Assembly (NCBI RefSeq): GCF_027460265.1
Contig: NZ_JAPZBC010000001.1
Span: forward strand, 4,630,001 to 4,694,000
Source: Streptomyces sp. WMMC940
GTDB lineage: Bacteria > Actinomycetota > Actinomycetes > Streptomycetales > Streptomycetaceae
Direction: 5' to 3'
DNA: 64,000 nt
Notes under the pieces: generated by a model
Told to the model about the DNA's origin: nothing
The model's database searches: none
The model's input: the letters and a program-made list of their open reading frames with translations, nothing else
Shown: positions 15,128 through 64,000 of the stretch, piece after piece
Position numbering within the stretch: position 1 is the first letter of the stretch
How the letters are laid out: each line of letters opens with the position of its first letter
Translations under genes and position numbers: made by a program

Positions 15128-15431
15128 CGAGAGCAGGAACGGCCACGAATGGACGTACGCGCTGGTAGCGGGTGCCGACAGGGGGCCCGGCGAGCTATGT
15201 TCGGTGGTGAGGCACGGTGAGCGCTCTCCTTCAGCGAATACATGGCCGAGTTGCGGTCAGGTGTTCTTGAAGTAACCCAGATCTTTGACATCGGTGGGGT
15301 GGCGATCTTGCCCATGGGGGAGGAGGAGGTGAAAGTCGCCAAGTCCGAGGCTCCGGTGCTCACCGGAGCCTGGTGCAAAAGGGAGATGCTCCGCAATTGA
15401 ACAGCGGAGTGATCCGGGAACGGAGTTCTGC
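15128..15431. other. Long leader / promoter region of hpf
   Basis: This 304-bp region is upstream of the hibernation factor gene. It contains the perfect hairpin at 15348-15371 and a purine-rich GGGGGAGGAGGAGGTG stretch near 15317-15331. A 28-codon open frame starts at the ATG in this region (15314), but nothing indicates that it is a gene. A stress-type promoter is expected here but was not identified with confidence. Confidence 0.5.
15348..15371 (+). promoter_or_regulatory. Leader hairpin upstream of hpf
   Basis: AGGCTCCGGTG (15348-15358) and CACCGGAGCCT (15361-15371) are an exact 11-bp inverted repeat with a 2-nt spacer, 60 nt before the hpf GTG. If it lies in the transcript it is a stable 5' leader hairpin that could affect hpf mRNA stability or translation. 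It could also be an operator. Confidence 0.4.
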
Positions 15432-46806: not shown

Positions 46807-46953
46807 GACCGCTGCGCACGATCACTCTGTCGTTATGTCGACTTCTGCGGGGGAAAAAGTCCCGCAGAAGCGACGGTTGGCGCCATCCGGGGCACGAGGC
46901 ACCCCGACATCCGCGTAGTTTGATGGGCAACGCCAGCCGCTGAGGGAGCAGTC

Positions 46954-48189: not shown

Positions 48190-48546
48190 GTGTTCTGAAA
48201 GTCCCGTCTGGGCGGGGGCGGACGACGCTGCATTCGAAACACGCCCCAGGCGTGTGGCGAAGGCCCTCCCGGCCCGCGCGCCCGGCACGCACTCGCCCGT
48301 AGCCCTTCGGGCACGGGAGGTGCCCCCACGCTGCGTTGTCGGTGTCGCCCGAGTACGTCCGGAACGAGGATCGTCCTCCGCCTTGCGATCGCACGCACCG
48401 GACGCCGCAGGCCCCGTCCCGCGGGCGGACGGAGTCACCTTCGAGGCCCTCGAAGCCCCTCCCCCCGGGGCCGGGGACCGCCGCCGGACCACTGGACGTC
48501 CACAGGCGCGACGGGCGTGTCGCGCGATGCCGTTACCCTTGGACGC
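48190..48546. other. 357-bp intergenic region, pkaB to prfB
   Basis: No gene is supported. Several imperfect GC-rich inverted repeats occur (for example GCCCGT...GGGCACGGG around 48294-48320), which may end pkaB transcription. The prfB promoter should be in the right half. Confidence 0.5.
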
Positions 48547-49653
48547 GTGGCAGTCGTCGATGTATCCGAAGAGCTGAAGTCCCTCTCCTCGACCATGGGG
48601 TCGATCGAGGCCGTCCTGGACCTCGACAGGATGAGGGCAGACGTCGCCGTGCTCGAGGAGCAGGCGGCGGCGCCGTCCCTCTGGGACGACCCCGAGGCGG
48701 CGCAGAAGATCACCAGCAAGCTCTCGCACCTGCAGGCCGAGGTCCGCAAGGCGGAGGCGCTCCGCGGACGGATCGACGACCTCGAAGTGCTCTTCGAGCT
48801 CGCCGAGGCCGAGGACGACCCGGACACCCGGGCGGAGGCCGAGACCGAGCTGGAGGCCGTCCGCAAGGCGCTGGACGAGATGGAGGTCCGCACGCTCCTC
48901 TCCGGCGAGTACGACGAGCGTGAGGCGCTGGTCAACATCCGGGCCGAGGCCGGCGGCGTGGACGCCGCCGACTTCGCCGAGCAGCTCCAGCGCATGTACT
49001 TGCGCTGGGCCGAGCGCCACGGCTACGGCACGGAGGTCTACGAGACCTCGTACGCGGAGGAGGCCGGCATCAAGTCGACCACCTTCGTCGTGAAGGCGCC
49101 GTACGCCTACGGCACGCTGTCGGTGGAGCAGGGCACGCACCGCCTGGTCCGCATCTCCCCGTTCGACAACCAGGGGCGGCGCCAGACGTCCTTCGCGGGC
49201 GTCGAGGTCCTGCCGGTCGTCGAGCAGTCGGACCACGTGGAGATCGACGAGTCCGAGCTGCGCGTGGACGTCTACCGCGCCTCCGGTCCCGGTGGCCAGG
49301 GAGTCAACACGACCGACTCCGCGGTCCGCATCACCCACATCCCGACCGGCATCGTGGTCTCCTGCCAGAACGAGCGCTCCCAGATCCAGAACAAGGCGAG
49401 CGCGATGAACGTCCTCCAGGCGAAGCTCCTCGAGCGCCGCCGGCAGGAGGAGCAGGCCAAGATGGACGCCCTCAAGGGCGACGGCGGCAACTCCTGGGGC
49501 AACCAGATGCGGTCGTACGTCCTCCACCCGTACCAGATGGTCAAGGACCTGCGGACGGAGTTCGAGGTCGGCAACCCGCAGTCGGTGCTCGACGGCGAGA
49601 TCGACGGCTTCCTCGAGGCGGGCATCCGCTGGCGCAAGCAGCAGGAGAAGTAG
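48547..49653 (+). CDS. prfB: Peptide chain release factor 2
   Basis: This 368-residue class I release factor ends translation at UGA and UAA. The stop-codon recognition tripeptide Ser204-Pro-Phe206 identifies RF2 rather than RF1. The catalytic GGQ is at 249-251 ([16 protein letters not shown]). The GTG at 48547 ([19 protein letters not shown]) matches the family start. There is no in-frame UGA near codon 25, so the autoregulatory +1 frameshift of E. coli prfB is absent, as is usual in actinobacteria. A 13-14 bp terminator stem follows. Confidence 0.97.
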
Positions 49654-49670
49654 CGGCCCGGCCGTACACG

Positions 49671-49700
49671 ACGGCCGCGTCCCCACGGGGGCGCGGCCGT
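49671..49700 (+). terminator. Terminator after prfB
   Basis: ACGGCCGCGTCCC (49671-49683) pairs with GGGGCGCGGCCGT (49688-49700), with one G-T wobble and a 4-nt loop, 18 nt after the stop. Confidence 0.8.
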
Positions 49701-50080
49701 TCGCCTTTCCCGTGCCGTCCGGGGCGGGGCGCGCCGGTCGGACGGTTCCCAAAGGCCCCGGAGCGGCGACCGGACGTGGATCTGCCCCAGGCGCGGCAGC
49801 CTTCCGGCCACCGGGCGCCTTCGTCGGGAGTTCGTCCTCGGAGCCGGTGGTGACGGCGCCGTCCACTCCGGTCCCACGGGTCCGCGAGATCCGCGCCGGG
49901 GCCCGCCCCGGCGGAGCCGCCGCGGCCCATACCGGTGGGCCGCTTGCGCAGGCTCAATTTCTCCTCAAGAAGACGGTGTTCGGCATGCGCCGCCGAACGG
50001 TCACGGATAGATTCTCGAATCCGGGCGGAGACTGATTGCGCGACCGCGGGTCCACCGCGCCGGGGCTGCGCGTCCGCTCC

Positions 50081-50890: not shown

Positions 50891-52396
50891 ATGGTCGGGC
50901 ACAGCGGCAGCGGGCCCTCCGAACAAGGCGCCCATTCCGTGCTCTACACGCGACTCATACCGCCTTTGCTCGGGCCTCTTCTGGACCGCCCCAGACTGTT
51001 CCGGACGCTGGACACGGGAGTGACGAGACGGCTCACCCTCGTGGTCGGTCCGCCAGGGGCCGGCAAGAGCGCGCTGCTGGCCTCCTGGGCCAGATCGCTG
51101 CCCCTGGGAGAGCCCGCGTGGCTCACTCTCGACGCCGACGACAACCACGCTCCCCGGCTCCTCACCCACCTCGCCGCGGCCCTGGCCCGCGCCGCCGCCA
51201 CCCGGGGCGGCGAGGGGGAGGGGACGCTCCGCTTCCGCGACGGGGTGGGCGTGCCGACCCTGCTCCACGAGGTCGGTAGGCTCCCGGATCCGCTCGTGCT
51301 GGTCGTCGACGCCTTCCACGAGCTGCGGCCCGGGCCGGCGCGCAGCGCCCTGCTGCAGTTCGCTCGCTACGCACCGGGCGGGCTGAGGGTGGTGCTCGCC
51401 ACCCGGAGGGAGCCGGACCTGCCGCTCCACAAGCTCCGTGCGGGCGGCGAGCTCACCGAGATCAGAGGCGCCGATCTCGCGTTCACCCACGCGGAGACGG
51501 CGGAGTTGTTCCGGGCGCAGGGAGCGGAGCCCGGTGGCGACCAGGTCGCCGCCGTGGTCCGCTGCTCGGGCGGCTGGGCCCTGGCGGTCCGCTACGCCTC
51601 GGCCAACCCGGTCCGGGGCGACGATCCCGGCTCCTGCCTGGAGGGGTGGTCCCAGGCCATCCGCCACTGCTCCGACTTCCTGCTGTCGGAGCTGCTCGAC
51701 CCGATGCCCGCGGACGACCAGGACGTGCTGCTGCGCACCAGTCTGCTCGGCGAGTTCAGCGCGTCCCTGGTGCGCGCCCTGACAGGCCGCGCCGACCTCA
51801 ACCGGGTGCTGCGCCGGCTGTCCACCGAGCACGACCTGTTGGTGCGGGACGACGAGTGGACCTACCGGCTGCCCAATCCGCTGATGCGTGGGGTGCTTTC
51901 GCGGGAGCTCACCGAGCGGTACGGCTGGCCCGAGGTGAGCCGGCTGCTGGGCAGGGCGGCCCGCTGGTACGAGGACCTGGGCGCGGCCTCCACGGCCCGG
52001 AGGTACGCGGCGGCCGCGCAAGCCTACGGGGCGGGGCCCGCGCCGGCGGGCGGCCTCCTCCTCCCGCCGGGGCCGGGTCGCACCGGTGGGGGAGTGTCCC
52101 TCCGGGTGCCCGCGGGTGACGCGGCCCCGTCACCCGCTCCGTCATCCCCCGGGGAGCCGGCGGCACCGGGCCACCGGCCGGCCACCGCAGCCGACTCTCT
52201 GACGCGCAGTGAACTCGACGTCCTGAGGCTGCTGCCGCTGGGTCTGACGCTGGACGAGATCGCCGCCCGCCGGCATGTGTCCCTCAACACCGTCAAGACG
52301 CAGGTACAGGCCATCTACCGCAAGCTGCAGGTCGGCCGCAGGCGCGACGCGGTCCGGGTCGCCGCGGAGTGCGGTCTGATCGGTCCTCGCGGCTGA
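50891..52396 (+). CDS. MalT-like LuxR-family regulator with ATPase domain
   Basis: This 501-residue regulator has an N-terminal STAND-type ATPase with Walker A GPPGAGKS (53-60), Walker B LVLVVDAF near 135 and the MalT-like segments LATRREPDLPLHKLRA and GGWALAVRY. A LuxR helix-turn-helix is at about 437-495 (LTRSELDVLRLLPLGLTLDEIA). It is shorter than full MalT/LAL regulators (about 900 residues), lacking most of the superhelical repeat region. It contains no TTA codon. It lies immediately before the modification genes in the same direction, so it is probably the cluster activator. Confidence 0.88.
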   Translation: MVGHSGSGPSEQGAHSVLYTRLIPPLLGPLLDRPRLFRTLDTGVTRRLTLVVGPPGAGKSALLASWARSLPLGEPAWLTLDADDNHAPRLLTHLAAALARAAATRGGEGEGTLRFRDGVGVPTLLHEVGRLPDPLVLVVDAFHELRPGPARSALLQFARYAPGGLRVVLATRREPDLPLHKLRAGGELTEIRGADLAFTHAETAELFRAQGAEPGGDQVAAVVRCSGGWALAVRYASANPVRGDDPGSCLEGWSQAIRHCSDFLLSELLDPMPADDQDVLLRTSLLGEFSASLVRALTGRADLNRVLRRLSTEHDLLVRDDEWTYRLPNPLMRGVLSRELTERYGWPEVSRLLGRAARWYEDLGAASTARRYAAAAQAYGAGPAPAGGLLLPPGPGRTGGGVSLRVPAGDAAPSPAPSSPGEPAAPGHRPATAADSLTRSELDVLRLLPLGLTLDEIAARRHVSLNTVKTQVQAIYRKLQVGRRRDAVRVAAECGLIGPRG

Positions 52397-52464
52397 GCCG
52401 GTACGCCCGCCGTCGCGGCGGGAACCACGCGCCCCGGACCGCCGCGGGCGGTGCCCGGCACGGG

Positions 52465-52483
52465 GGGTGATACACCGTCACCC
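52465..52483. promoter_or_regulatory. Inverted repeat in RiPP operon promoter region
   Basis: GGGTGA, 7 nt, TCACCC forms a perfect 6-bp dyad (52465-52470 and 52478-52483). It lies 113 bp upstream of the YcaO gene in the only sizeable gap between regulator and biosynthetic genes. It is a candidate site for the LuxR-type regulator. Confidence 0.4.
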
Positions 52484-52596
52484 TCCCGCCGTCCGGACCG
52501 GGAACGCGTTTCACCCCCGGCGCGTGATGCCTCTTCCACCTGTCCACCGGTTGGCTTCAGCCGATCGCTGCGCACGCAGAGGACAGGAGGCAGCCA

Positions 52597-53961
52597 GTGC
52601 TGGATGCACGTGCGAGTGGTGACCGGACCGCCGCTGCGGACCGGGGGGACGGCGCGACGGAGGACGACCTCGCCGGGCTCCGGCGGCTGGAGGCCGTCGT
52701 CGGGCCGGCCGGGCGGCCGGTGCGGGGTTCCCAGCTCCTCCCCACCCTGCCGGGCGAGCCCCCCTACTCGGTCTTCGTCTCGTCCATCGGCGACCCCACC
52801 GCTCTCTGGTCCGACACCCCCGCCCAGCCCCAGGGCCTGGACGGCGCCGGAGGCGGCACCGACGCCGAGAGGGCCCGGCTGATCAGTGTGGCCGAGGCGC
52901 TGGAGCGCTACACCAATTCCTTCTACCAGCCGCATCTGGTGCGCTGGGCGACCGCGGACGAGCTCGGGGACGAGGCGGTCGACCTCGACGCACTCCCACG
53001 CTGCTCGGACGCGGAGCTGTCCGACGAGTCGAACTGGCTGATCCGCCCCGACGGGTCGCTGCCGCAGCGCTGGGTGCGCGGCTGGTCGCTCACCCGGAGC
53101 CGACCGGTCTGGATCCCCGCGTCCTACGTCTGGCTGTTCACCACGCACGAGGCGATCGGGGAGCGGATCGCCAATCCCATCTCGACCGGCTGCGCGATCC
53201 ACTCGGATCTGCACCAGGCCTTGGTGAACGGGATCTGCGAAGCGGTCGAACGCGACGCGATCGCCCTGGTGTGGCTTCAGCGCCTCGAGCTGCCGGAGAT
53301 CGACGTCGCGGACGAGCCGTCCCTGCGGGAACAGCATCGGCGGGCCAGGGACGGCTTCGTGGAGTACCGCTTCTACGACGCCACCACGGACGTGGGCGTG
53401 GCCACGGTCTACGCGGTCGTGCTCAGCGACCACAACGACACGCTGGGCCAGCTCGTGATGTGCGCGACCGGGACCGACCCCGCTGAGGTCATCCGCAAGA
53501 TCTACCGGGAGGCGGCCTCCTCGCGCATCGCCCTTCAGGCCCCGCACTCCGTTCCCGAGGATCCGCGCGACTTCACCAGCGTGCTGCACGGCGCCCTCCA
53601 CATGGGCCGCCCGGAGCGGCGGGACGCCTTCGGGTTCCTGCTGCGACGGCCGTGCCCCACCCGGGTGCCCGCGGATCTGCCTCGGGCACCGGACGGCCCT
53701 CCCGCGCGGCGGCTCGCCTGGCTGGTGGAGCGGCTGGCCGCGGTGGACGCCGAGGTGATCGCCGTGGAGCTGACGACGGAGGAGGCCCGACGGGCCGGAC
53801 TCCGCTCGGTACGGGTCGTCGTGCCCCAGCTGATGCCGCTGTCCTTCGTGCACCGCAACCGGTACCTGGCCCACCCCCGGCTCTACCGGGCACCGGTCGC
53901 GATGGGGCTCACCAGCCACCGGGAGCACGAACTCAACCCCCACCCCCAGCCCTTCGCCTAG
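52597..53961 (+). CDS. YcaO cyclodehydratase (azoline-forming)
   Basis: This 454-residue YcaO-domain enzyme uses ATP to activate backbone amides so that Cys, Ser or Thr side chains close to azolines. Visible motifs are SVAEALERY (97-105), STGCA (196-200) and NGICEAVERDA (211-221), which carry ATP/Mg-binding acidic residues. It ends in NPHPQPFA, so Pro448, Pro450 and Pro452 form the C-terminal PxPxP motif diagnostic of azoline-forming YcaO proteins. The GTG at 52597 follows GGAGG by six bases. It is the first gene of the modification operon and needs a partner that binds the leader peptide. Confidence 0.93.
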   Translation: MLDARASGDRTAAADRGDGATEDDLAGLRRLEAVVGPAGRPVRGSQLLPTLPGEPPYSVFVSSIGDPTALWSDTPAQPQGLDGAGGGTDAERARLISVAEALERYTNSFYQPHLVRWATADELGDEAVDLDALPRCSDAELSDESNWLIRPDGSLPQRWVRGWSLTRSRPVWIPASYVWLFTTHEAIGERIANPISTGCAIHSDLHQALVNGICEAVERDAIALVWLQRLELPEIDVADEPSLREQHRRARDGFVEYRFYDATTDVGVATVYAVVLSDHNDTLGQLVMCATGTDPAEVIRKIYREAASSRIALQAPHSVPEDPRDFTSVLHGALHMGRPERRDAFGFLLRRPCPTRVPADLPRAPDGPPARRLAWLVERLAAVDAEVIAVELTTEEARRAGLRSVRVVVPQLMPLSFVHRNRYLAHPRLYRAPVAMGLTSHREHELNPHPQPFA

Positions 53962-53973
53962 GAGAGAACCGCC

Positions 53974-54633
53974 GTGCCGTTCACCACCGCACCCGCACAC
54001 GTCCTGTGGACCGGGACGTTCGGCAGGAGGGTCGCCGACCACCTGGCCTCCCTGACCGACTGGCCCTCCGCCACCGCCGACGCCCTGGGGAGCCGGTCCG
54101 CCGAGTGGCCCCACACCGCGCTCCGCGTGCTCGCCCTCTGGCGGGACGAACCCCGCCTCCTGGCGGACGTCTCCCGGCTGCACAGCGTGTGCCGCACCAC
54201 CTGGCTCCCCGTCGTCCAGGAGTTCCCCCTCATCCGGATCGGGCCCCTGATCGTGCCGGGCCAGGGCCCTTGCCACTCCTGCTACACACGACGGCGGGCC
54301 CAGCACGACAGGGGACGCGAGGTGTCCAGGGCCCTGCAGGAGTCGCGGGAGGCCGACCCCGGGCACGGGATCGCCGGGTTCACCGACGCTCAGGCCATGA
54401 TCGCGGCCGGCCTCGCCGTGGATCTCCTCACCCGGTACCGCACCGGGGACGGCGTGGTACCGGGGCAGGTGACCTTCTACAACGTGCTGAGCCGGTCCCT
54501 GTTCTCCGACACGGTCATCGGCGTCCACGGCTGTGAGGAGTGCGGGCCGCCGACGGACCCGGACGACGGCTGGCGGCGGCTGGCCGCCGAACTGCCGCTC
54601 ACCACGGGCACCGTGGCGGGAGGCGGACGGTGA
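53974..54633 (+). CDS. E1-like cyclodehydratase partner, zinc tetracysteine (no leader-binding domain)
   Basis: This 219-residue protein lies 12 bp after the YcaO gene. Cys100/Cys103 (GPCHSC) and Cys187/Cys190 (GCEEC) form the zinc tetracysteine of ThiF/E1-like partner proteins of azole RiPP pathways. The region SVCRTTWLPVVQEFPLIRIG and the Ala/Leu-rich helix AQAMIAAGLAVDLLTRY fit the same family. The N-terminal leader-recognition domain usual for these partners is missing, and no intact ATP site is seen. It probably assists the YcaO enzyme together with the next protein. Its stop overlaps the next start (GTGA). Confidence 0.75.
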   Translation: MPFTTAPAHVLWTGTFGRRVADHLASLTDWPSATADALGSRSAEWPHTALRVLALWRDEPRLLADVSRLHSVCRTTWLPVVQEFPLIRIGPLIVPGQGPCHSCYTRRRAQHDRGREVSRALQESREADPGHGIAGFTDAQAMIAAGLAVDLLTRYRTGDGVVPGQVTFYNVLSRSLFSDTVIGVHGCEECGPPTDPDDGWRRLAAELPLTTGTVAGGGR

Positions 54634-56390
54634 GCACCCTCGTCAGCGTGCCGGGACAGCGCGGTGTCCCCGCAGCCGCCGTCGCCGAGGCCGTGCGCCA
54701 CGATCCCCAGTTCCGGCTTCCCGTCCGCCCGCAGCTCTGCCGGGGGCTCCACGTGGTCGACACGCCGGACGGCGTGGTCATCGACGGAGGCGCCGAACGC
54801 CAGCATCTGCGCGGCTCCTCGGCCGCGGCCCTCCGGCGGAGCCTGCTTCCTCTCCTGGACGGCAGCAGGGATCTCGCCGCGCTGGCCCACGCGACCGGGT
54901 GGAGCGACTCGGCCGTCCACCAGGCCGTGGCCACCCTGTACTTCGCCGGGGTGCTGGAGGACGCGGCACAGGCCGTACGGACACCGGAGGGTGACGGGCC
55001 GTCGGAGCCGGCCGCGGTCTGGACGTCGCGGACGCTGGACTGCGCCCGTGTGCACCCCCACTCCAGCCGTGCGGCGCTCGCCGCGGCACGGGCCCGGGTG
55101 CGGCTGAGCGTACGGGCGTCCTGGCAGCGCCCCCTGCGGGCCGCGCTGGCCGACCTCGGGATCACCGATGTGCTCCCGCTCGCCCCCGGCGAGGGACCAC
55201 CGGAGGACGCACTGGTCGTCGCCGACCTCGCGGCGCCCCGCGCGACGGTCGACCGGATCGTCGACGAGAGCGCCCGGCGCGGCATCCGGCTGCTGCTGGC
55301 GGACGAGCGGGACGGACGCGTCGCCGTGGGCCCGCTGGTGGACCCCTCGGCGACCGCCTGCGCACACTGCGCCCGCACGGCAGTCGAGCTCCGGCCCGGT
55401 CCACCCGAGTGGTTCCGCGAGGCGGTCCCCACCCCGGGTGCGGCAACCGCGGCCGGACTGATCGCCGAGGAGCTCCGCGCCCTGCTGCTGCGGGGGGAGC
55501 CGGTCCAGTCCCTCGGAGGGCAGCTCGTCGTGGACCTCGCGGACAGGTCCACCACCGCGTACAAACTGACCCCCGAGGCCGGCTGCCGCGCCTGCTACCC
55601 GTCCGCCGCGGGCCGTACCGGCCCCCTGCCGGAGGAAGGGCCGTTGCACTACGAGCACGCCGTGGCCTTCCCTCCCCGGCATCTGGTCAACCCCAAGGCA
55701 CACCAGCACCACTTCCGCCCGGAGAACGTCGAGCTCCAGTTCGAGCGACTGAGGTACCCCAACAATCCGCGGTATCCGCTGCCCGAGGCGTCCCCGGCGG
55801 ACCTGGAGAAGCTCGCCGCCGGCACGCAGCCACCACCGTGGCCGGACGCACTGGCGGCCGTGATGCGCTTCACCGCGGGGCTGCGCGGCCCCGGCGACGA
55901 AGGGGGGCCCGGCGAACCCGGGCGGGTGAACCGATGGGCGCCGACCGGCGGAAACCTGGGCTCGCCCCATGTCTACGCGCTGCTGCGGGGCGTCCCCGGC
56001 CTCCCCGACGGCGTCCACTACTACGACGCCGCCGACCATGCGCTCACCGCCATGCACCCCCACACCGACCACCTGGGCACGCTCCTCACGGCACTGGGCG
56101 GGGACGCCGCCGACGGCGGGGAGCGGCCCGGCGTGCACCTGGTCCTGGCCTCGGACATCGGCCGCGTCGCCCGGAAGTACGGTCCGTTCGCCTACCGCGT
56201 GGGGAACCTCGACACCGGATGCGCACTGGCCCAGCTCGCTCTCACGGCCCGGGCGATCGGGCTGGCACACGGCCTGCTGGACCCCCACCCCCTGCAACGG
56301 CACCGGGAGTTCCTCGTGGGTGCCGGCGGTCCCGCGCTCATCACCGCCGCAGTGCGGCTCCAGGACGAAGGGAGCGGCTCGTGCCGCTGA
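54630..56390 (+). CDS. Leader-recognition / E1-like / SagB dehydrogenase fusion
   Basis: This 586-residue three-part protein starts at a GTG that overlaps the previous stop. Residues 20-115 look like a winged-helix leader-binding (RRE) domain (RPQLCRGLHVVDTPDGVVID, then LLPLLDGSRDLAALAHATG). An E1-like part follows with Cys244/Cys247 (ACAHC) and Cys319/Cys322 (GCRAC). From about 395 comes a SagB-type FMN nitroreductase domain (NRWAPTGGNLGSPHVYALLRG, GVHYYDAADHAL, QLALTARAIGLAHG). It would bind precursor leaders, support cyclisation and oxidise azolines to azoles. It overlaps the next gene by 10 nt. Confidence 0.83.
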   Translation: MSTLVSVPGQRGVPAAAVAEAVRHDPQFRLPVRPQLCRGLHVVDTPDGVVIDGGAERQHLRGSSAAALRRSLLPLLDGSRDLAALAHATGWSDSAVHQAVATLYFAGVLEDAAQAVRTPEGDGPSEPAAVWTSRTLDCARVHPHSSRAALAAARARVRLSVRASWQRPLRAALADLGITDVLPLAPGEGPPEDALVVADLAAPRATVDRIVDESARRGIRLLLADERDGRVAVGPLVDPSATACAHCARTAVELRPGPPEWFREAVPTPGAATAAGLIAEELRALLLRGEPVQSLGGQLVVDLADRSTTAYKLTPEAGCRACYPSAAGRTGPLPEEGPLHYEHAVAFPPRHLVNPKAHQHHFRPENVELQFERLRYPNNPRYPLPEASPADLEKLAAGTQPPPWPDALAAVMRFTAGLRGPGDEGGPGEPGRVNRWAPTGGNLGSPHVYALLRGVPGLPDGVHYYDAADHALTAMHPHTDHLGTLLTALGGDAADGGERPGVHLVLASDIGRVARKYGPFAYRVGNLDTGCALAQLALTARAIGLAHGLLDPHPLQRHREFLVGAGGPALITAAVRLQDEGSGSCR

Positions 56391-57073
56391 TCGACACGGC
56401 CGGCCTGACCGAGCAACTGCTGGCCGCACCGCCCACCGCATCCGCATCCTCCGACGTCCGGCCCGGAGCGGCTCCCCCGCTGCCCGGTGACCCGGTCCGT
56501 GCGCTGCGCCGCCGCAGAGCACAACGGCACTGGGCGCCCGAACCGCTGGACGGGGACGTCCTCGTCAAGGCCCTCGCGTACGCCTTCGAGCAGGACGGGC
56601 GGCTGTGGCGGCCGGCCTTCCCCACGCTGCCGACGCCGGCCGCGACCGTACTGGTGCAGAGACTCCTCGACGTTCCGGAGGGCTGCCACCGCTACGAGCC
56701 CGAGGGGCGACGGCTGGTGCCCGAGCCACGTGCCCTGCCGCCGCTCGCGGACCTGGTGCTGCAACTGGAGTTCGCCGAGGCACCGGCCCTGGTGGTGGTG
56801 CACGGCGATCTGGCGGCGACACTCGAACGGCATGGTGCGGGGGGCCACCGGCTGCTGTTGGCACGCGGCGCGGCGCTGGCCCATTCCGCATGGCTCGCAG
56901 CCCTCTCCCTCGGAGCCGTCGGCTCCGTGTTCGCCGGTGTGCTCGGTGCGGCGGGACGCACCCATCTGGGCCTCGACGGGTCCGGCCGGGCACAGCTCAT
57001 CGGCCTGGCACTCGGCTCCCCCCGCCGGGTCCGGCCTGCCCCGGCGCCGGGCGACCGGACCGGGGAGTGGTGA
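56381..57073 (+). CDS. Degenerate nitroreductase-like protein
   Basis: This 230-residue protein starts at a GTG after GGGAG, inside the end of the previous gene. Its second half follows the nitroreductase pattern (ALVVVHGDLAATLERHGAGG, HSAWLAALSLGAVGSVFAG, LGLDGSGRAQLIGLALG). The first half is short, and typical FMN-phosphate-binding Arg/Ser residues are not obvious. It may form a heterodimer with the SagB-type domain of the preceding protein or be a specialised second oxidase. It is conserved in frame and tightly packed in the operon, so it is unlikely to be a broken gene. Confidence 0.65.
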   Translation: MPLIDTAGLTEQLLAAPPTASASSDVRPGAAPPLPGDPVRALRRRRAQRHWAPEPLDGDVLVKALAYAFEQDGRLWRPAFPTLPTPAATVLVQRLLDVPEGCHRYEPEGRRLVPEPRALPPLADLVLQLEFAEAPALVVVHGDLAATLERHGAGGHRLLLARGAALAHSAWLAALSLGAVGSVFAGVLGAAGRTHLGLDGSGRAQLIGLALGSPRRVRPAPAPGDRTGEW

Positions 57074-58212
57074 TGGCCGGCTCATCCGTCCATGTGGCCT
57101 CCGGCAGCGCCCGGCCGTCCTGGCTGGACACCGAGCGCCCGGCCATGCGCCCCGACGTCGAGATCACCGAGGGGCTGAACCGGGAACCGCTCGCCTACGA
57201 CCCGGTCAGCGGCCACTACACCCGGCTGTCCAGGAGCGGGGCCGCGATCCTCACGGCCCTCGACGGTTCCATGACCGGACGGGAGTTCGCCGCCCGGGCC
57301 GCGGGCACGGGACGCGGTGACGGCTCCACCGAGCGGGTGGTGCTGGACTTCCTCGGGGAACTGCGCGCCGCCGGACTGCTGACCGTGCCCCCGGCCGGTG
57401 GCCGGGAAGCCTCGGCCGTGCGCTTCGCACGCCGCGGCCACATGCCGCGTCTGCCGCTGGTGGGCGCCGGGGTGCGCGTCGTGCTGGACCCGCCCGCCTC
57501 GCTGCTCCGCCGCGCACCGCGGCCGTTCGGCGCGCTGTGGATCGCCGCGGCGGTCCTCGCGGTGTGGGGGGCGGGGTCGGTGCTCGCCGCTCCCCTCGCG
57601 GCCGGCGGTCCCGAGCTGACCCTCCCGGTGCGGGGCTGGGCGGTCGTCGTCTGCGGCATGCTGCTGCAGACCACCCTGCACGAGCTGGCCCACGGACTGG
57701 CCTGCCGCTACTACGGCGTCCCCGTCCGGGAGATCGGCGTCGGCCTCCTCTTCTACCTGGTCCCCGTGGCCTATGTGGACCGCACCGACGCCCACCGGCT
57801 CCCCGGACGCGGGCCCCGGGTGGTCATCGCCCTGGCCGGAGTGGCCCAGGACGTGCTGTGGCTGGGCGGCTGGTCGGCGCTGTCGCTGTACGCCGAGGGG
57901 CAGTTCGGACAGCTCTGCCTGCTGATGGTCTGGCTGCAGATCGGCCTGCTGCTGGCGAACCTGAACCCGCTGCTCCCCACCGACGGGTACCACGCGCTGG
58001 AGTCGGCCATGGGCACACTGAACCTGCGCTCGCGCGCCTTCACCGCACTGCGGTGCCGGGTGCTGCGGCAGCCACCGCCGAGCTGGCTCGCCGTCCGGAG
58101 CCGCTCCCGGCAGCTGCACTACCAGGTGTTCGGGCTCGTCTGCCTCGCCTACGCGCTGCTCGTCGCGGTCTTCTGCGTACGCTCGCTGCTCCTGCTGTTC
58201 GGGGGCGCGTGA
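57073..58212 (+). CDS. PqqD-like domain fused to M50 membrane metalloprotease
   Basis: This 379-residue protein has an N-terminal PqqD-like, leader-binding-type domain at about 26-105 (DVEITEGLNREPLAYDPVSG, FLGELRAAGLL) and a multi-pass membrane part. HELAH at 203-207 gives zinc ligands His203 and His207 with Glu204. NPLLPTDGYHALE near 298-310 supplies Asp304, the third ligand of site-2-protease (M50) enzymes. The layout suggests a membrane protease that recognises the modified precursor and removes its leader, possibly helping release. It overlaps both neighbours by one base (TGATG). Confidence 0.85.
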   Translation: MAGSSVHVASGSARPSWLDTERPAMRPDVEITEGLNREPLAYDPVSGHYTRLSRSGAAILTALDGSMTGREFAARAAGTGRGDGSTERVVLDFLGELRAAGLLTVPPAGGREASAVRFARRGHMPRLPLVGAGVRVVLDPPASLLRRAPRPFGALWIAAAVLAVWGAGSVLAAPLAAGGPELTLPVRGWAVVVCGMLLQTTLHELAHGLACRYYGVPVREIGVGLLFYLVPVAYVDRTDAHRLPGRGPRVVIALAGVAQDVLWLGGWSALSLYAEGQFGQLCLLMVWLQIGLLLANLNPLLPTDGYHALESAMGTLNLRSRAFTALRCRVLRQPPPSWLAVRSRSRQLHYQVFGLVCLAYALLVAVFCVRSLLLLFGGA

Positions 58213-60716
58213 TGACGACCTCGACCGGGAGGCAGCCCTCGACCGCGACGCGGTCCCCGTCCTCGGCTCAGCCCCCGACCGCGACGCGAGCCGTGGACGG
58301 GCCCGCCGCCGGACATCCCCTGGCCGTGGGCCCGGCCCTGAGCAGGGTCGCCGGACTCCCGGCAGCCGCCGTGGCACCGCTGGCGGCCGAGGAGGTCGCC
58401 GAGGTCCTGGACCGGATCGCCGCGGCCCGCCGGGAACTGGCCGCCCTGGCACCGGCGGTGACCGGTCTGCTGCACGACGCCGTGCCGCTGATGCCGACCA
58501 CCGGCGCACGCCGGTCGGTGCTGCGCTGGCGGAGGGCGGCCCACGCCGGGCGGCCGGACCTGGTGCCGCCGGAACTGCTCGCGCAGGTCCGCGAGGCACT
58601 CGCGACGAGGGAGGCGAGGGAGGTCTCGGCACTGGAGCGCTGGGTGGAACGGGCCGGGTCCCTGGCCGAGCTGCGGCAGCTGCTGGGCCGGCGTGCCGGG
58701 GCCGCGGAGGCCGCCGAGGAGCGGACCCTGCGCCACCTCATGGGACTGCCCGCCGTGTCGGGCGCGCTGGCACTGGTCTCGCCCGTGTTCTCCCGTCGTG
58801 TACGGCAGCCGGGCGGGCGGCCGCTGGACCGGGGGGAGCGCCTGACCGCGTACGGGTACGCCGTACGGTCCGCACTGAAGGCCAGCCCGCTGTCCTCGCT
58901 CACCCATGTCTCGGTCCCGGGAGCGGACCACGGCGCCCGGGTCCGGGTCGTCCTGCACCCCCTGGTCGGCCGGGTACTGCTGCGGGCTGCGGCCGTCCGT
59001 CACGGGGTGCGCGACCTGGTCCGCTGGCGGGTCAACGGCTCCCTCCGCGTGGCGGACCCCCTCGCCCGGATGAGCGAGCCACGGCAGTCGGTGACCGACG
59101 GTTGGGCCTGGTCGGACGACGAGGTCCTCGACGCCACCGGGAGGGAGGACCTGTTCGCCGCCCTCCGGGATCCGGGGAGGCTGCCCGCCGTCCGGCTGGC
59201 CCGTTACCTGGAGGCCGGTCTGCTGGACATCGACGACCCCTGCCCGCAGGACGGGCTCCTGGACTGGCTCGCCACGGCACTGGCCGCATCCCGTGACCCG
59301 TCGGACCTCCGGGCGGCCGGGCGACTGCGGACCGCCGCGGGCGAGCTGGCGGTCATCGCCGGCGGCGGCCCGGCGGCCCGGGCCGACGCCCTGGTGCGGC
59401 TGCGCGAAGCGCTGGAGGACGCCCTCGGGGCGCTCGGCGCCGCCGACGACTGGCCGCTGGACGACGTCACCCTGGTCTACGAGGACCGGGCCGGCACCCT
59501 GCCGGCCCGCCCGCTGGACGACGAGCGGGCCGCGTTACTGCGGCGCCATGCCGGGGCCGTGTGCGACAGCCTGCGGGTGTCCCCCGAGTACCAGGCGCTC
59601 ACCGACGCGTTCGTGGCGCGGTTCGGCCCGGGCGGTGTCTGCGACGACGTGTTCGGCTTCTTCCAGGAGCTGGCCGCGTTCGGAATCCCCGGAGCCCCCG
59701 GAGCCCCTTTCGGCCCCGCCCCGGGCACGGCTCGCCCCGCCCGTCCGGGGCGGTCGAGTTGCCTGCCCTCGGTCGCCGTCGTCTTCCAGGACTGCGACGC
59801 GGACGGCGACGGCCCGCTCCTCGTCGTCAACCAGGTCTCGTCGGGCGCAGGAGGGCTGGTCGCCCGTTTCCACCGGCTGTACGACTCCGTCGGCGACGCG
59901 CCCGGGGCGGGCTTCGCCGAACGGCTCCGCGCCTGGGTGCGCACGCTGCATCCGGACGCCGAGTGCCTGGAGTTCGTCCCGGCCCGCGAGGTCAACCCCC
60001 TGCAGGGGGACAGCTGCGGCGTCCTTCCCGCGTCGCTGCACTGGCCCACCGTGCCGCGCCGGTTCGGCCCGGGCGTACCGGTGGAGGAGCTGGTACTGGT
60101 GCACGACGGCAGGCGGAACGCCCTGGAACTGCGCCGCCGGAGCGGCACACCGGTGGCCCCCGTCTACCTCGGTACCGTCCCGCGCCATCTGGTGGGCGGA
60201 GCGGCCCGGTTCCTGCTCGTCCTCGCGGACCCCTGGTGGCTGCCCCCGGGTCTCGCCGACGGCACGCGCCCCGACGGCCAGCCGGGGGCGGGACGCGGTG
60301 CGTCGGCACGGCACGTCGTGGCGGGCGCGGCGGTCCGGCGGGCGCACTGGCGGTGGGAGACGTCCGAGGTACCGCGCCGGGAACCGGGCGAGGAACCGGC
60401 GGTCTTCCTGGAACGGGTGGACGCCTGGCGACGCGCCCACGGCATGCCCGCCGAGGTGTACGTCAGGGGTGGGAGCGGCTCCCCGCGGCGCGGGGACAGG
60501 GCCCGCAAACCCCTGTGGCTGTCCTTCGCCTCCCCCACGGGTCTGGACCTGCTGGACCGCCTGACCGAACGGCCCGGAACGGTGCTGGTGTTCGCCGAGT
60601 GCCTTCCGCGACGCCCCGTCGGGGAGGGACCCGACGCCCATGTGGTCGAGCACTGCGTGCACTTCGCCCGCCCGGTGCGGGACACGGAACCGGAGCGGTG
60701 CCGAGATGGCCGCTGA
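58212..60716 (+). CDS. LanB-type dehydratase, glutamylation (N-terminal) protein
   Basis: This 834-residue protein matches the N-terminal LanB domain, which transfers glutamate from glutamyl-tRNA to Ser/Thr side chains. Recognisable blocks include SALKASPLSSLTHVSV, the central RRHAGAVCDSLRVSPEYQ, GRSSCLPSVAVVFQDC and the late LPWWLPPG-like and RKPLWLSFASPTGLDLL. A 45-residue Ser/Thr/Pro-rich N-terminus precedes the domain. The elimination domain is encoded separately by the next gene. Leu442 is encoded by TTA (59535-59537), the only in-frame TTA I found in the cluster, suggesting control by the bldA tRNA. The ATG overlaps the previous stop. Confidence 0.87.
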   Translation: MTTSTGRQPSTATRSPSSAQPPTATRAVDGPAAGHPLAVGPALSRVAGLPAAAVAPLAAEEVAEVLDRIAAARRELAALAPAVTGLLHDAVPLMPTTGARRSVLRWRRAAHAGRPDLVPPELLAQVREALATREAREVSALERWVERAGSLAELRQLLGRRAGAAEAAEERTLRHLMGLPAVSGALALVSPVFSRRVRQPGGRPLDRGERLTAYGYAVRSALKASPLSSLTHVSVPGADHGARVRVVLHPLVGRVLLRAAAVRHGVRDLVRWRVNGSLRVADPLARMSEPRQSVTDGWAWSDDEVLDATGREDLFAALRDPGRLPAVRLARYLEAGLLDIDDPCPQDGLLDWLATALAASRDPSDLRAAGRLRTAAGELAVIAGGGPAARADALVRLREALEDALGALGAADDWPLDDVTLVYEDRAGTLPARPLDDERAALLRRHAGAVCDSLRVSPEYQALTDAFVARFGPGGVCDDVFGFFQELAAFGIPGAPGAPFGPAPGTARPARPGRSSCLPSVAVVFQDCDADGDGPLLVVNQVSSGAGGLVARFHRLYDSVGDAPGAGFAERLRAWVRTLHPDAECLEFVPAREVNPLQGDSCGVLPASLHWPTVPRRFGPGVPVEELVLVHDGRRNALELRRRSGTPVAPVYLGTVPRHLVGGAARFLLVLADPWWLPPGLADGTRPDGQPGAGRGASARHVVAGAAVRRAHWRWETSEVPRREPGEEPAVFLERVDAWRRAHGMPAEVYVRGGSGSPRRGDRARKPLWLSFASPTGLDLLDRLTERPGTVLVFAECLPRRPVGEGPDAHVVEHCVHFARPVRDTEPERCRDGR

Positions 60717-61686
60717 GGAATGGCTCTACGCCCGTGTCCACCACACCGGACACCAGGACGGCGAACTCCTGCTGACCGACCTGGTCCCGAGCTGGGTCGA
60801 GGCAGCCGAGCACGCGGGCGTCCGGCGGTGGTTCTTCCTCCGCTACGCCGATGCGAGCGGCCCGCATCTGCGGGTGCGCTTCCGCGGCACTCCCGACGCG
60901 CTCGACGGCTGCTGGGAGGCCGGCCGCGCCCTGTGGAGGGAGCACGTCCGTCCGCCTGACCGGGGGGAGGTCCACCGGCTGCACCCGCTGGCGGAGGAGG
61001 GGCTGCCCGGTAGCGGCAGCCGCCGGCTCAGCCTGGGCCTCTACGGCCGGGAGCACCACTACTACGGATCACCTCCGGCCGTCGACATCGCCGAGGAGGT
61101 CTTCCAGGCCAGCAGCGAGCTGTGCCTGGACGCGGTCCGGGCGACCGGGGCGGACCGTACGGCCAGGGCGCATCTCGCGGTGCGGGTGATGCGGTCCTGC
61201 CTGGGCTCGCTGGGGCGGCGCCAGCGCGAGCGGGTCTGGCGGCTGCACTGGGGCCACTGGACCGGCGTCCTCGCCGGGGACCCGGCCTCGCTCCGGGAGA
61301 CGGAGCGGATCGCCGAACGATGGCCGGCGGATCCACGACCGCCCGCCGGTGCCGGGCCCGCCTCCGCCAGGGCCGCCGCCGGTGCCGCCGTCGCGTTGCC
61401 GGTCGCCTCCTCTGGCGATGCCAAGTCCCTTTCCGCGCTTCCCGCCGCCGCCGACGCGCTGGGCCGCGACCTCGCGGACGGCGTGCGGCGTGCCTTGGCC
61501 GTCGACCCCGCCGCCGTCGCCTCGCGGCTGCTGCTGATGCAGCTGCACATGACGCTCAACCGGCTCGGCTTCCTCCCCCTCGAAGAGGCCGTGCTCGGGC
61601 GGGTGGCGGCGCGGGCGGAGCGTTCCGCTTCCCCCTCGCCCCCTCCGGCGCTTCCCGGTGCGTCCCCCGGCACCAACGCCCCTTAG
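60706..61686 (+). CDS. LanB elimination-domain protein (thiopeptide-type small dehydratase)
   Basis: This 326-residue protein matches the C-terminal LanB elimination domain (Lant_dehydr_C type), which removes glutamate to give dehydroalanine or dehydrobutyrine. Its start EEWLYARVHHTGHQDGELLL and RRWFFLRYADASGPHLRVRF are typical, as is LSLGLYGREHHYYGSPPAVD. The ATG at 60706 lies inside the end of the glutamylation gene, an 11-nt overlap, so the two halves are made together. Only one protein of this family is present, so no separate pyridine synthase is seen. The last 20 residues are Ser/Pro-rich. Confidence 0.88.
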   Translation: MAAEEWLYARVHHTGHQDGELLLTDLVPSWVEAAEHAGVRRWFFLRYADASGPHLRVRFRGTPDALDGCWEAGRALWREHVRPPDRGEVHRLHPLAEEGLPGSGSRRLSLGLYGREHHYYGSPPAVDIAEEVFQASSELCLDAVRATGADRTARAHLAVRVMRSCLGSLGRRQRERVWRLHWGHWTGVLAGDPASLRETERIAERWPADPRPPAGAGPASARAAAGAAVALPVASSGDAKSLSALPAAADALGRDLADGVRRALAVDPAAVASRLLLMQLHMTLNRLGFLPLEEAVLGRVAARAERSASPSPPPALPGASPGTNAP

Positions 61687-61771
61687 CGGGCCCCGAGACC
61701 CGGCGCACGACAGGGCGCCGTGGCGGCCCCGTCCGGGGCCGCAGCGTGAAGATCACGAAAGGAACAGCGTG

Positions 61772-61936
61772 ATGAGCGAACTCGATCTGCGCATCGAGCA
61801 CGAGGACCCCGAGATCGAGGTGCTCCCCGACACCCGTTCCGCGGGCTCCTGCGCCGGTTGCGCCAGCACGGCAGGGTCCTTCTCCTGCCCGGCGGGCTCC
61901 ATCGGCAGTGTCGGCTCGGCCAGCAGCGCCGGCTGA
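61772..61936 (+). CDS. RiPP precursor peptide 1 (54 residues)
   Basis: This is a short gene with a good ribosome site (AAAGGAAC). Leader block LDLRIEHEDPEIEVLP at 4-19 is shared with three following genes. The presumed core (20-54) is mostly Ser, Gly, Ala and Cys, with Cys27, Cys30 and Cys39. SAG lies at 23-25 and SCP at 38-40. It starts 85 nt after the elimination-protein gene on the same strand. The final modified residues cannot be predicted. Confidence 0.88.
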   Translation: MSELDLRIEHEDPEIEVLPDTRSAGSCAGCASTAGSFSCPAGSIGSVGSASSAG

Positions 61937-62025
61937 CACGGATCGCCCGCGTCGGGTCCGCACGGACCCCACCGCGGCTCCGGAGCCCCGGAGCCGCGCC
62001 ACCCTCGACACGACAGGAGACCGCA

Positions 62026-62184
62026 ATGAACGACCTCGACCTGCGTCTGGACCAGGAGATGCCCGAACTGGAGGTGCTCCCCGAGGAGTACTCGGCCGGG
62101 AACGTGTCCTGCGCCGCCACCGTCGGCTCCGGTTCCTGCCCGGCCATGACCTGGGGGACCGCGAGCACCCTGAGCTCCAAGTAG
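62026..62184 (+). CDS. RiPP precursor peptide 2 (52 residues)
   Basis: This paralogue of precursor 1 starts at ATG 62026 after ACAGGAGACC. The leader block LDLRLDQEMPELEVLP is at 4-19, again directly followed by a 33-residue core. The core keeps SAG at 23-25 and SCP at 37-39, with Cys29 and Cys38. It is the only core with Met-Thr-Trp (41-43) and it ends in Lys. The leader is the most conserved part, as expected if one enzyme set reads all four peptides. Confidence 0.88.
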   Translation: MNDLDLRLDQEMPELEVLPEEYSAGNVSCAATVGSGSCPAMTWGTASTLSSK

Positions 62185-62284
62185 CCCGCCCCACCACGGC
62201 GGGCCGGATCACGGGATCCCGGTCCGCCCCCAGCAGACGAGCCGGCGGACACGCCGGTCACACGAGCAACGAGCAAGGAGACGC

Positions 62285-62464
62285 ATGGACAGGTTGCCCG
62301 ACACCGACGTACTGGAACTCGTGCTGGAGCGTGAACTCCCCGAGCTGGAGGTGCTGCCGGCCGGGTACGCCCCAGGCAGCACCCTCGGCAGCGCGGGAAG
62401 CATCAGTTGCGCGTCCTGCCCCGCCGCCTCGATCAGCAGCGCGTCGACCGCCAGCAGCCACTGA
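62285..62464 (+). CDS. RiPP precursor peptide 3 (59 residues)
   Basis: This short gene starts at ATG 62285 after CAAGGAGACGC and encodes 59 residues, just under common gene-finding limits. The leader has six extra residues before the block LELVLERELPELEVLP at 10-25. The 34-residue core has APG at 29-31 and Cys42 and Cys45 in SCASCPA (41-47), then a Ser/Ala-rich end. Same strand, spacing (100 nt after precursor 2) and leader support a real gene. Confidence 0.87.
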   Translation: MDRLPDTDVLELVLERELPELEVLPAGYAPGSTLGSAGSISCASCPAASISSASTASSH

Positions 62465-62591
62465 GCGAGCCGACGGCACGGCGACGGACCGGGGCCGCTC
62501 GCCGCCCCGACGAGCAGCGGCGGTTCCGAGACCCGCCACCGTCGGCCTCCGCCGGCGGACACCCACACGGAACTTCTTACAGGAGGAGAAC

Positions 62592-62777
62592 ATGAACGAC
62601 ATCACCCCGACTTCCGCCCCGGTACTCGACCTGCGCCTCGATCAGGAGGCGCCGGAACTGGAGGTGCTGCCGGCGGCCCACTCGCCCGGCAGCACCGTCG
62701 GCTGCGCCGCAACCGGCAGCTCCATCTCCACGCCGTCGGGATGCTTCAGCAGCGCGGGCACGGCGAGCAGCGTGTGA
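62592..62777 (+). CDS. RiPP precursor peptide 4 (61 residues)
   Basis: This gene starts at ATG 62592 after an excellent AGGAGGAG site. An eleven-residue extension precedes the leader block LDLRLDQEAPELEVLP at 12-27. The 34-residue core has SPG at 31-33 and STP at 46-48, where the other three have SCP; its Cys residues are Cys38 and Cys51. It ends SSAGTASSV. As I recall, goadsporin's core has a similar Ser/Thr/Gly-rich make-up ending in SSAGCV, but no alignment could be run. Confidence 0.88.
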   Translation: MNDITPTSAPVLDLRLDQEAPELEVLPAAHSPGSTVGCAATGSSISTPSGCFSSAGTASSV

Positions 62778-62992: not shown

Positions 62993-63169
62993 GTGCCTCC
63001 TGTTGCCTACGTCGAAGCTCTGAAGACGGGCCGGGTACTCGAAGTTCCGTCCGTGGTGCGCGAGTGCCAGGCGGTCTACGATCACGCCTTGGGGGACGCG
63101 CTCTCGCACCGCGAGTCCCTGGCTCTGATCAGGTCCGTCGCGGAGGAGTACGAGCATGCGCAGCAATGA
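62993..63169 (+). pseudogene. C-terminal remnant of a DUF5753 (Scr1-type) XRE regulator
   Basis: The reading frame ending at 63169 gives only about 58 residues that look like protein (PPVAYVEALKTGRVLEVPSV, then ALSHRESLALIRSVAEEY). This matches the extreme end of DUF5753-type regulators, which normally have about 280 residues with an N-terminal XRE helix-turn-helix. The N-terminal part is absent, and there is no ribosome site before the GTG at 62993. It overlaps the DUF397 gene by 14 nt, the usual pairing of such regulators. It is most likely the residue of a deletion. Confidence 0.7.
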
Positions 63170-63380
63170 GCAGGTCGTCCCCGACCCCGCCCTCATGTGG
63201 CGCAAGTCCAGCCACAGCGGCGGCAGCAGCGGCGACTGCCTCGAGGTCAACGACTCCTGCGCCGCCCGCGTCCCCGTCCGGGACAGCAAGAACCCGGACG
63301 GCCCCGCCGTCGTGTTCGGCCCGTTGGCCTGGACGGCCTTCGTCGGCTCTCTCAAGGCGCGCCTGATCGACCCTGTGTGA
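63156..63380 (+). CDS. DUF397 domain-containing protein
   Basis: This 74-residue protein has the DUF397 pattern: WRKSSHSGGSSGDCLEVND, then VRDSKNPDGPAVVFGPLAWTAFV. In Streptomyces these small proteins are encoded beside DUF5753/XRE regulators (the WhiJ/BldB-related and Scr1/Scr2 pairs) and counteract or modulate them. The ATG follows GGAGGAG at eight bases and overlaps the truncated regulator frame. With the partner broken, its function here is uncertain. Confidence 0.92.
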   Translation: MRSNEQVVPDPALMWRKSSHSGGSSGDCLEVNDSCAARVPVRDSKNPDGPAVVFGPLAWTAFVGSLKARLIDPV

Positions 63381-63700
63381 CCGCGGTTGTCGTTGCTGTG
63401 ATTCGCGGGCGGGAAGCGGAAAGCCGCTGGTGCCTCGCTTTGTCGACAAGGGAACTGGCCTCAGGCGGGCGGTAGTTCCTGTCTTACGTCACAGTTATAC
63501 GCCCCGCCTCGGTCAACTGGCCCTATTTCGGGCATCGCACGCGCAATGAAACTTGACGCGTCCGCGGAAACTGGGAAGGCTGGCGCGCGGCATGCGTACC
63601 TGTGGGGCGGGTGTGAGCGGGGAAGCGGAAGCGCAGCCCTGAGCGGTCACCGCCCCTGACGCTGCACTACAAACGAATCAGCTACTGGGGGTAGCAACAG
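63381..63700. promoter_or_regulatory. Promoter region of the secreted repeat protein
   Basis: This 320-bp non-coding region is of lower GC content than its surroundings. TTGACG at 63553-63558 with AAGGCT at 63576-63581 (17-bp spacing) is a possible sigma-70-type promoter. TTACGTCACAGTTATACG lies near 63484-63501. The ribosome site before the ATG is GGGGGTAGC. No gene is seen. Confidence 0.4.
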
Positions 63701-64000
63701 ATGACCAAGAAGACGCGGGTTCGCGTCGCGCGGATAGCCGCCGGCGCGGTGATCGCCGCCGGTGCTTCCCTGACCGCCGCGGGCGCGGCGCAGGCCCTCG
63801 GCGTCGGTGACCTGACCGCAAGCGCCGAGGTGACGCAGGAGGGTGCTGAGATCGGTCTCGGTATCCGTGACGGCGAGGACGTCGGCGGCACTCTCGGTGG
63901 AGTTGACGCTGGTGTCGAGGGTGGCACCACTGACGGTGGCACGACCGATGGTGGTACGACCGACGGTGGTACGACCGACGGTGGTACGACCGATGGTGGC
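63701..64000 (+). CDS. Secreted protein with DGGTT repeats, 5' part (runs off window)
   Basis: Exactly 100 codons are visible and the frame is still open at the window end. A basic start (MTKKTRVRVARIAAG) and hydrophobic stretch (about 10-30) form a signal peptide with a likely cut after AQA (about 30-32). From about residue 73 the protein becomes perfect Gly-Gly-Thr-Thr-Asp repeats, at least five copies. Such secreted Gly/Thr repeats may be wall- or surface-associated linkers. No family could be assigned without the rest of the protein. Confidence 0.8.
   Translation, partial: MTKKTRVRVARIAAGAVIAAGASLTAAGAAQALGVGDLTASAEVTQEGAEIGLGIRDGEDVGGTLGGVDAGVEGGTTDGGTTDGGTTDGGTTDGGTTDGG

Follow-up and report, generated by a model that had tools for sequence, protein, structure and literature searches.

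The 64,000-nt stretch of Streptomyces sp. WMMC940 analysed here (the window), high-GC actinomycete sequence from a 7.67-Mb genome, contains a consecutive series of 12 forward-strand genes at 50,891-62,777. We consider these likely to be a cluster for linear ribosomally synthesized and post-translationally modified peptides (RiPPs) carrying azoles and dehydroalanine (Dha), similar in logic to the goadsporin pathway and provided with four dedicated precursors; its chemical steps are proposed from homology. This is the best reading of the locus because of the gene set, the conservation of that set and a simple rule in the precursor cores. The features are as follows (aa, amino acids).

50891..52396, forward strand: LuxR/MalT-type regulator, 501 aa, with a P-loop ATPase and a GerE domain (PF00196 40.2 bits, PF13191 36.7 bits)
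52597..53961, forward strand: YcaO cyclodehydratase, 454 aa (TIGR03604 296 bits, PF02624 215.8 bits), C terminus NPHPQPFA with a PxPxP motif
53974..54633, forward strand: stand-alone E1-like cyclodehydratase partner, 219 aa (TIGR03882 55.2 bits, cut-off 36.9), with two CxxC pairs
54630..56390, forward strand: E1-like N-terminal part fused to a SagB-type azoline dehydrogenase, 586 aa (TIGR03882 37.6 bits, TIGR03605 73.8 bits)
56381..57073, forward strand: NTR2, a second nitroreductase-fold protein, 230 aa (PF00881 29.5 bits, AlphaFold2 (AF2) model and Foldseek)
57073..58212, forward strand: PqqD-M50 site-2 protease, 379 aa (PF02163 38.4 bits, PF05402 24.4 bits), with HELAH and NLNPLLPTDG
58212..60716, forward strand: LanB-N, a predicted GodF-like Ser/Thr glutamylation protein, 834 aa (PDB 9jhq, GodF, 4.4e-38)
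60706..61686, forward strand: LanB-C, a PF14028 protein, 326 aa (PF14028 129 bits), most likely a glutamate eliminase
61701..61742, forward strand: two hairpins between LanB-C and A1 (RNAalifold on seven loci, and single folds)
61772..61936, forward strand: precursor A1, 54 aa (NF033482 63.3 bits), four Ser-(Ser/Thr/Cys) pairs in the core
62026..62184, forward strand: precursor A2, 52 aa (NF033482 65.5 bits), four such pairs
62285..62464, forward strand: precursor A3, 59 aa (NF033482 56.9 bits), six such pairs
62592..62777, forward strand: precursor A4, 61 aa (NF033482 54.8 bits), five such pairs

The sequence-only reading had proposed this single-strand gene set, and every item of it agrees with the domain matches, the coordinates and the third-position GC content. 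It had also described the genes as mostly overlapping: five adjacent pairs share 1-11 nt, the YcaO and E1-like genes are 12 nt apart, and the precursor genes are spaced by 89-127 nt. All 12 genes have a third-codon-position GC of 0.84-0.94, and in 11 of them no other codon position is as GC-rich; the sole exception is NTR2 (0.84 versus 0.85). The proposed combination of azole and dehydroamino-acid chemistry is supported as well, by the SagD-type YcaO with its PxPxP motif, the Lys-Tyr pair of SagB, the GodF-like LanB-N and a LanB-C that lies nearer to eliminases.

Azole formation is assigned to the first part of the series. YcaO is of the SagD type and ends in PHPQP, a PxPxP motif being associated with azoline-forming YcaO proteins (PMC12338566; statements from the literature, here and below, draw on partial texts of the PubMed Central (PMC) papers cited). 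The E1-like N-terminal part of the fusion protein resembles a RiPP recognition element (RRE), as judged by eye, and scores over the TIGR03882 cut-off. In its SagB domain K516-Y517 is invariant in 18 of 18 aligned sequences, and we take this Lys-Tyr pair to be catalytic in this class of enzyme.

The four precursors share the leader motif LxLxxExPELEVLP and exceed the curated cut-off of 25 bits for NF033482, the NCBI "thiocillin family RiPP", which matched 24 of the 24 precursors given; these precursors thus already carry a family name. In the four window cores Ser precedes Thr or Cys 12 times and follows it never, and in 36 cores of relatives, hand-trimmed from precursors read by eye, the counts are 95 and 24. 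Neither difference was reached in any of 20,000 within-core shuffles, although the relative cores share kinship and their shuffle test therefore overstates independence. All nine Cys residues of the window cores are preceded by Ser or Gly. In goadsporin, Dha formation at S4 and S14 needs an azole on the next residue (PMC5303826); if this azole-first rule is valid here, Ser would be expected before, not after, Thr or Cys, and the observed bias fits Dha forming N-terminal to an azole.

Each of A1-A4 has a counterpart in seven other close loci (one-to-one pairing by eye). Against loci L008, L070 and L071, the pooled cores have nonsynonymous divergence (dN) of 0.087-0.150 and a ratio to synonymous divergence (dN/dS) of 0.12-0.22, and the leaders dN of 0.21-0.23 and dN/dS of 0.26-0.28; dN of the enzymes against L008 is 0.17-0.33. 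The contrast between core and leader is small at closer distances, with dN/dS of 0.33 and 0.42 against L006 and of 0.53 and 0.57 against L072; in the L006 comparison dN is 0.057 for cores, 0.082 for leaders and 0.040 for YcaO. Leaders and cores have dN/dS below 1 in all five comparisons, and on the core values the four cores are conserved and appear unlike a diversifying library.

The same cassette recurs well beyond this strain, and related enzyme sets are present in other Gram-positive bacteria. An alignment of close M50 proteins, used as the query, retrieved 28 loci, and co-occurrence of the cassette among them is therefore conditional on M50. By tblastn with the window proteins, YcaO, the E1-like protein, the SagB fusion, M50, LanB-N and LanB-C were found in 28 of 28 loci and NTR2 in 27, the remaining one being L017, where the sequence stops 546 bp past the SagB gene. 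Of these loci, 26 share the order YcaO-E1-SagB-NTR2-M50-LanBN-LanBC, whereas those of Patulibacter (L017) and Sphaerimonospora (L031) have it rearranged; the hosts include Streptomyces, Kitasatospora, Streptosporangium, Planobispora, Nesterenkonia, Actinomyces, Patulibacter and two Bacillus. An M50 homologue (E<=1e-30) occurs in 15 of 392 genomes of the window's genus, its own included, and NF033482 precursors are present in all 15; a phylum-wide M50 profile search, a thinner draw, found 2 of 396 genomes, both of that genus. In the reverse direction, within the same 392-genome draw and with at most 17 candidates scored per genome, a match to NF033482 at E<=1e-6 was accompanied by M50 in 15 of 16 genomes. 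The only genome without M50, G332, has four NF033482-like precursors (24-35 bits) at 1,939,614-1,940,682 of its contig C1 (L088); pieces resembling YcaO and SagB lie within 19 kb, and this locus is possibly a distant variant.

Several findings weigh against the linear azole-Dha reading. Window LanB-C, as a single sequence, has TsrE as its best PDB match (3.9e-5); at the position of NisB R826 the five aligned members of the window subtype have Tyr, and all 24 distant relatives have Lys; and an unrooted tree with long-branch warnings places the LanB-C family apart from both reference groups (100/100). The SagB domain scores slightly under the NCBIfam cut-off of 78.4 bits for TIGR03605, the NTR2 model reaches a template modelling (TM) score of about 0.6 to its best matches, and the window cluster shows no recognisable gene for export or immunity. 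The TsrE match and the Tyr had made us suspect at first that LanB-C is a [4+2] enzyme. A macrocyclic thiopeptide cluster, with LanB-C performing the cycloaddition, would suit the thiocillin label of the precursors and the scores of LanB-C against TIGR03891 (85.1 bits) and, weakly, the pyridine synthase model NF045556 (29.2 bits, far under the cut-off of 325). Thiopeptides need both an eliminase and a [4+2] enzyme, however, and a single PF14028-type protein was found in each of 32 loci, scoring closer to eliminases. As references we used nine sites at which a protein over the NF045556 cut-off stands beside a second homologue, presumed to be the eliminase. A hidden Markov model (HMM) of the window's LanB-C family matched nine of nine presumed eliminases at 62-93 bits and three pyridine synthase frames at 22-50 bits; in reverse, the eliminase HMM (31-92 bits) outscored the pyridine HMM (6-32 bits) in 29 of 29 family members, GodG not being among the references. 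Among solved structures, MibB (8.7e-22), 9g04 (2e-11) and NisB (2.5e-10) are better matches to the family profile than TsrE (6.9e-6) and TbtD (1.9e-5). The family profile, the HMM comparison and the lack of Arg at the R826 position in seven of nine reference eliminases speak against the [4+2] suspicion. Among seven genomes with a curated pyridine synthase, moreover, none has an NF033482 precursor over the cut-off, and one has a sub-cut-off match on another contig. With the pyridine synthase missing, the thiopeptide reading was dropped, and we leave it a very small chance. Alternatively, LanB-C may be degenerate or repurposed, so that the products would bear azoles with few or no dehydroamino acids, or retained glutamyl esters. 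The Tyr and the separate clade speak for this. Elimination by NisB requires R786, R826 and H961 (PMC4979651); the R786 position is R58 of LanB-C (counted along 4wd9), H281 of the HMxxNR motif is the putative equivalent of H961, and W42, R56, R58, H281, N285 and R286 are all invariant in 19 sequences. The R826 position itself is 2 Arg, 3 Ala, 2 Thr, 1 Met and 1 Val in the nine reference eliminases and is therefore not diagnostic. The tree, in which the pyridine synthase group is firm (100/100) and the eliminase group weak (82/36), groups both reference sets together, so that on its own it gives no ground for assigning the family to the eliminases. With LanB-C under constraint (dN/dS 0.34-0.35), its degeneration or repurposing appears decidedly unlikely, and LanB-C is most likely a glutamate eliminase, nearer by sequence to eliminases than to pyridine synthases. 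For its partner LanB-N, none of the Pfam or NCBIfam models gave a match at E<=1, and the LanB-N family profile found GodF at 1.1e-153 and 6ec7 at 1e-52.

For NTR2, the alternative to azoline oxidation is that it reduces Dha or dehydrobutyrine (Dhb) to D-Ala or D-2-aminobutyrate (D-Abu), or tailors the peptide otherwise; the cluster already has a SagB enzyme, and NTR2 is without the conserved Lys-Tyr pair of that partner, as judged by eye. Its AF2 model, built from 19 sequences (predicted local distance difference test (pLDDT) 88.3), has as its best Foldseek matches BmdC (2.3e-9), Ava_2154 and McbC (3.5e-8), followed by ThcOx (2.8e-6). BmdC, McbC and ThcOx are presumably azoline oxidases. These folds, together with the retention of NTR2 in nearly all relatives, speak against a reductase, which we think unlikely; on the model, NTR2 probably partners the SagB domain in azoline oxidation. 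The M50 protein raises another possibility, a daptide-type cluster in which an RRE-M50 protease would point to C-terminal amine chemistry. It scores 142.4 bits against the daptide protease model NF041824, and daptide subgroups with YcaO and pyridine-synthase-like genes have been reported (PMC10036551). That score is under the cut-off of 300, however, the precursors end in G, K, H and V (A1-A4) rather than Thr, and no aminotransferase, alcohol dehydrogenase or methyltransferase is found among the eight larger cluster proteins. The daptide reading, like a dehydrazole reading, was dropped because core genes are missing, and its probability is close to negligible. The window protein combines a PqqD domain, which is leader-binding, with the two protease motifs; the M50 proteins of all 32 loci have HExxH, and NxxPxxxxDG was recognised in 28 of them, the pattern having missed four. 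The closest species-named homologue of the window protein is from Streptomyces tirandamycinicus (91% identity). In daptides an RRE-dependent intramembrane peptidase removes the leader (PMC10036551), and M50 proteases are also at work in epipeptides and pearlins (PMC10885120); by analogy, the M50 protein probably removes the leader here.

It is proposed that biosynthesis of the linear azole-Dha peptides would begin with binding of the leader by the RRE-like part of the SagB fusion, after which YcaO and the E1-like partners would cyclise Cys, Thr and Ser residues, mostly those following Ser, Gly or Ala. The SagB domain, probably with NTR2, would oxidise the azolines to azoles. LanB-N would then glutamylate the Ser adjoining an azole, using Glu-tRNA, and LanB-C would eliminate the glutamate to give Dha-azole pairs, up to 19 across the four cores. 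No pyridine macrocycle would be formed. The PqqD-M50 protease would bind the leader and cut it off at the membrane, and export would follow an unlinked route.

The window belongs to a subtype of eight loci (the window, L006-L009 and L070-L072; L073, a repeat of L009, was excluded from counts) in which M50 is at least 59% identical to that of the window and four NF033482 precursors follow LanB-C, their order differing only in L009 (A1, A4, A2, A3). The gene order, which the sequence-only reading had not recognised, differs from that of the distant relatives inspected in that the precursors come last and no ABC-2 (ATP-binding cassette) exporter is linked: in the 12 distant relatives, out of 24, that were inspected by eye, at least three precursors lie upstream of M50, and an ABC-2 exporter pair lies near the cassette in 24 of 24. 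An ABC-2 permease was found in none of the eight subtype loci within the sequence examined, one flank of which was short for L009, L070, L071 and L072. The window has a weak ABC ATPase match 19 kb upstream (30,876-31,484); in L006, L007 and L078 a further match lies 2-3 kb downstream of the final precursor, and in L078 it is FtsE. Past the window cluster there are small genes (63,035-64,000), followed by ftsE, ftsX, a C-terminal processing peptidase and smpB (L078). The cluster may occupy a shared chromosomal site, because the ABC ATPase match past the last precursor in L006 and L007 resembles the position of FtsE in L078.

Two genomes with the window subtype encode a fifth precursor-like peptide with a PEIEVL leader and a different core (L086:7252-7386, at G551:C1:3755251, and L087:7080-7214, at G634:C30:14079). 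No cassette gene was found by tblastn in the 14-15 kb examined around either, and the peptide is possibly a substrate modified in trans. In L070, a peptide of 65 aa encoded 1.9 kb downstream of the final precursor (16417-16614) belongs to another precursor family, thiazolylpeptide-type bacteriocin (TIGR03892, NF033400), and perhaps marks a second, adjacent RiPP cluster. A broader proposal, about which we are doubtful and which we offer tentatively, is that the cassette defines an undescribed RiPP class across Actinomycetota and Bacillota in which Ser-(Ser/Thr/Cys) pairs become runs of Dha-azole, and that the four co-kept precursors of the Streptomyces subtype, their cores more constrained than their leaders, would yield a product of four fixed components, acting as a combined antibiotic or signal. 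On this proposal the unlinked fifth peptide, modified in trans, would sometimes be added, and release would fall to an RRE-guided intramembrane protease, with no exporter dedicated to the task.

Regarding expression, regulator orthologues are present in L006, L007 and L008, and the L009 contig begins at YcaO. The GC-rich hairpin pair at 61701-61742 has equivalents in L006, L007, L008, L070, L071 and L072; over these and the window, RNAalifold gives 16 base pairs, three with two-sided changes and four broken or gapped in one or two sequences. These hairpins may set the relative mRNA levels of the enzymes and the precursors. A scan for sigma-70 promoters and terminators gave no signal exceeding shuffles. 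Elsewhere in the window there is a raiA-hairpin small RNA (RF03059, 74.2 bits) at 15337-15384, and a minus-strand open reading frame of 1,014 aa at 46,822-49,866, which has no Pfam or NCBIfam match, lies over plus-strand frames with the usual third-position GC and is probably antisense. The same genome also holds an azole-RiPP-like locus, L079 (G000:C1:587,000-606,000), with three YcaO matches, an ABC-2-like pair and a PF14028 protein scoring 91.8 bits against the pyridine synthase model (cut-off 325); L079 and L080, the other PF14028 loci of the genome, were compared by tblastn only.

No description of this cassette, its pathway or its product was found in the open-licence PMC literature, subscription papers being outside the scope. 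The sequence-only reading had called the pathway uncharacterised; that literature does not contradict this, although the arrangement is not particular to the strain, the cassette occurring in many genomes. NF033482 is cited as "thiocillin-like" among actinobacterial YcaO-linked precursors (PMC8442711), and such precursors have therefore been noted before; on our analysis, annotation of such clusters may be misled by the name that NCBI gives to the family. The proposed comparison of gene content with described RiPP systems turned up, in the open-licence texts drawn on, no near-identical characterised cluster, goadsporin from Streptomyces sp. TP-A0584 being closest in logic but differing in gene set. 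Both systems have azole formation of the YcaO and SagB type, a split LanB (GodF/GodG in goadsporin) and no [4+2] enzyme. In goadsporin a single precursor is accompanied by a fused cyclodehydratase, an exporter of the peptidase-ABC type and an N-acetyltransferase (PMC5303826, PMC4603692), whereas the window cluster has four precursors, discrete YcaO and E1 proteins, an extra nitroreductase and the PqqD-M50 protease. Neither a GodH-type N-acetyltransferase nor a GodB-type peptidase-ABC domain is found among its eight larger proteins. A split LanB is reportedly present in the berninamycin and TP-1161 thiopeptide clusters too. These resemble the window cluster in their unfused cyclodehydratase (PMC4603692) and differ from the cassette in that no pyridine synthase was recognised in 32 of 32 cassette loci, their precursors not being part of the comparison. 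The coryneazolisins, uncharacterised thiazole/oxazole-modified microcins (TOMMs), likewise combine YcaO with LanB-like dehydratases without a [4+2] enzyme and are set apart, by description only, by two D proteins and a core of contiguous Cys, Ser and Thr (PMC4603692). Dehydrazoles such as carnazolamide share a dehydrated Ser before an azole and have their own DUF4135 LanM-type dehydration and a nitrile-hydratase-like leader (PMC10676384); the DUF4135 dehydratase (PF13575) has no match among the eight larger cluster proteins. Daptides share an RRE-fused site-2 protease and several precursors per cluster (PMC10036551), whereas the window cluster is without the daptide core enzymes and its precursors have other C termini.

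In the literature covered, peptides combining azoles and Dha outside the thiopeptides are few: goadsporin, the dehydrazoles and the uncharacterised coryneazolisins. The present family adds many natural examples together with a simple sequence rule for Dha placement, its compact seven-enzyme set is suited to reconstitution, and four distinct cores maintained together pose a testable question on multi-component RiPP products. What is new here is the conserved cassette, the four-precursor subtype without a linked exporter, and the unlinked fifth precursor-like peptide in two relatives. Among the known systems, the cluster resembles goadsporin in its logic and differs from it in its gene set and in its four precursors, which are conserved together.

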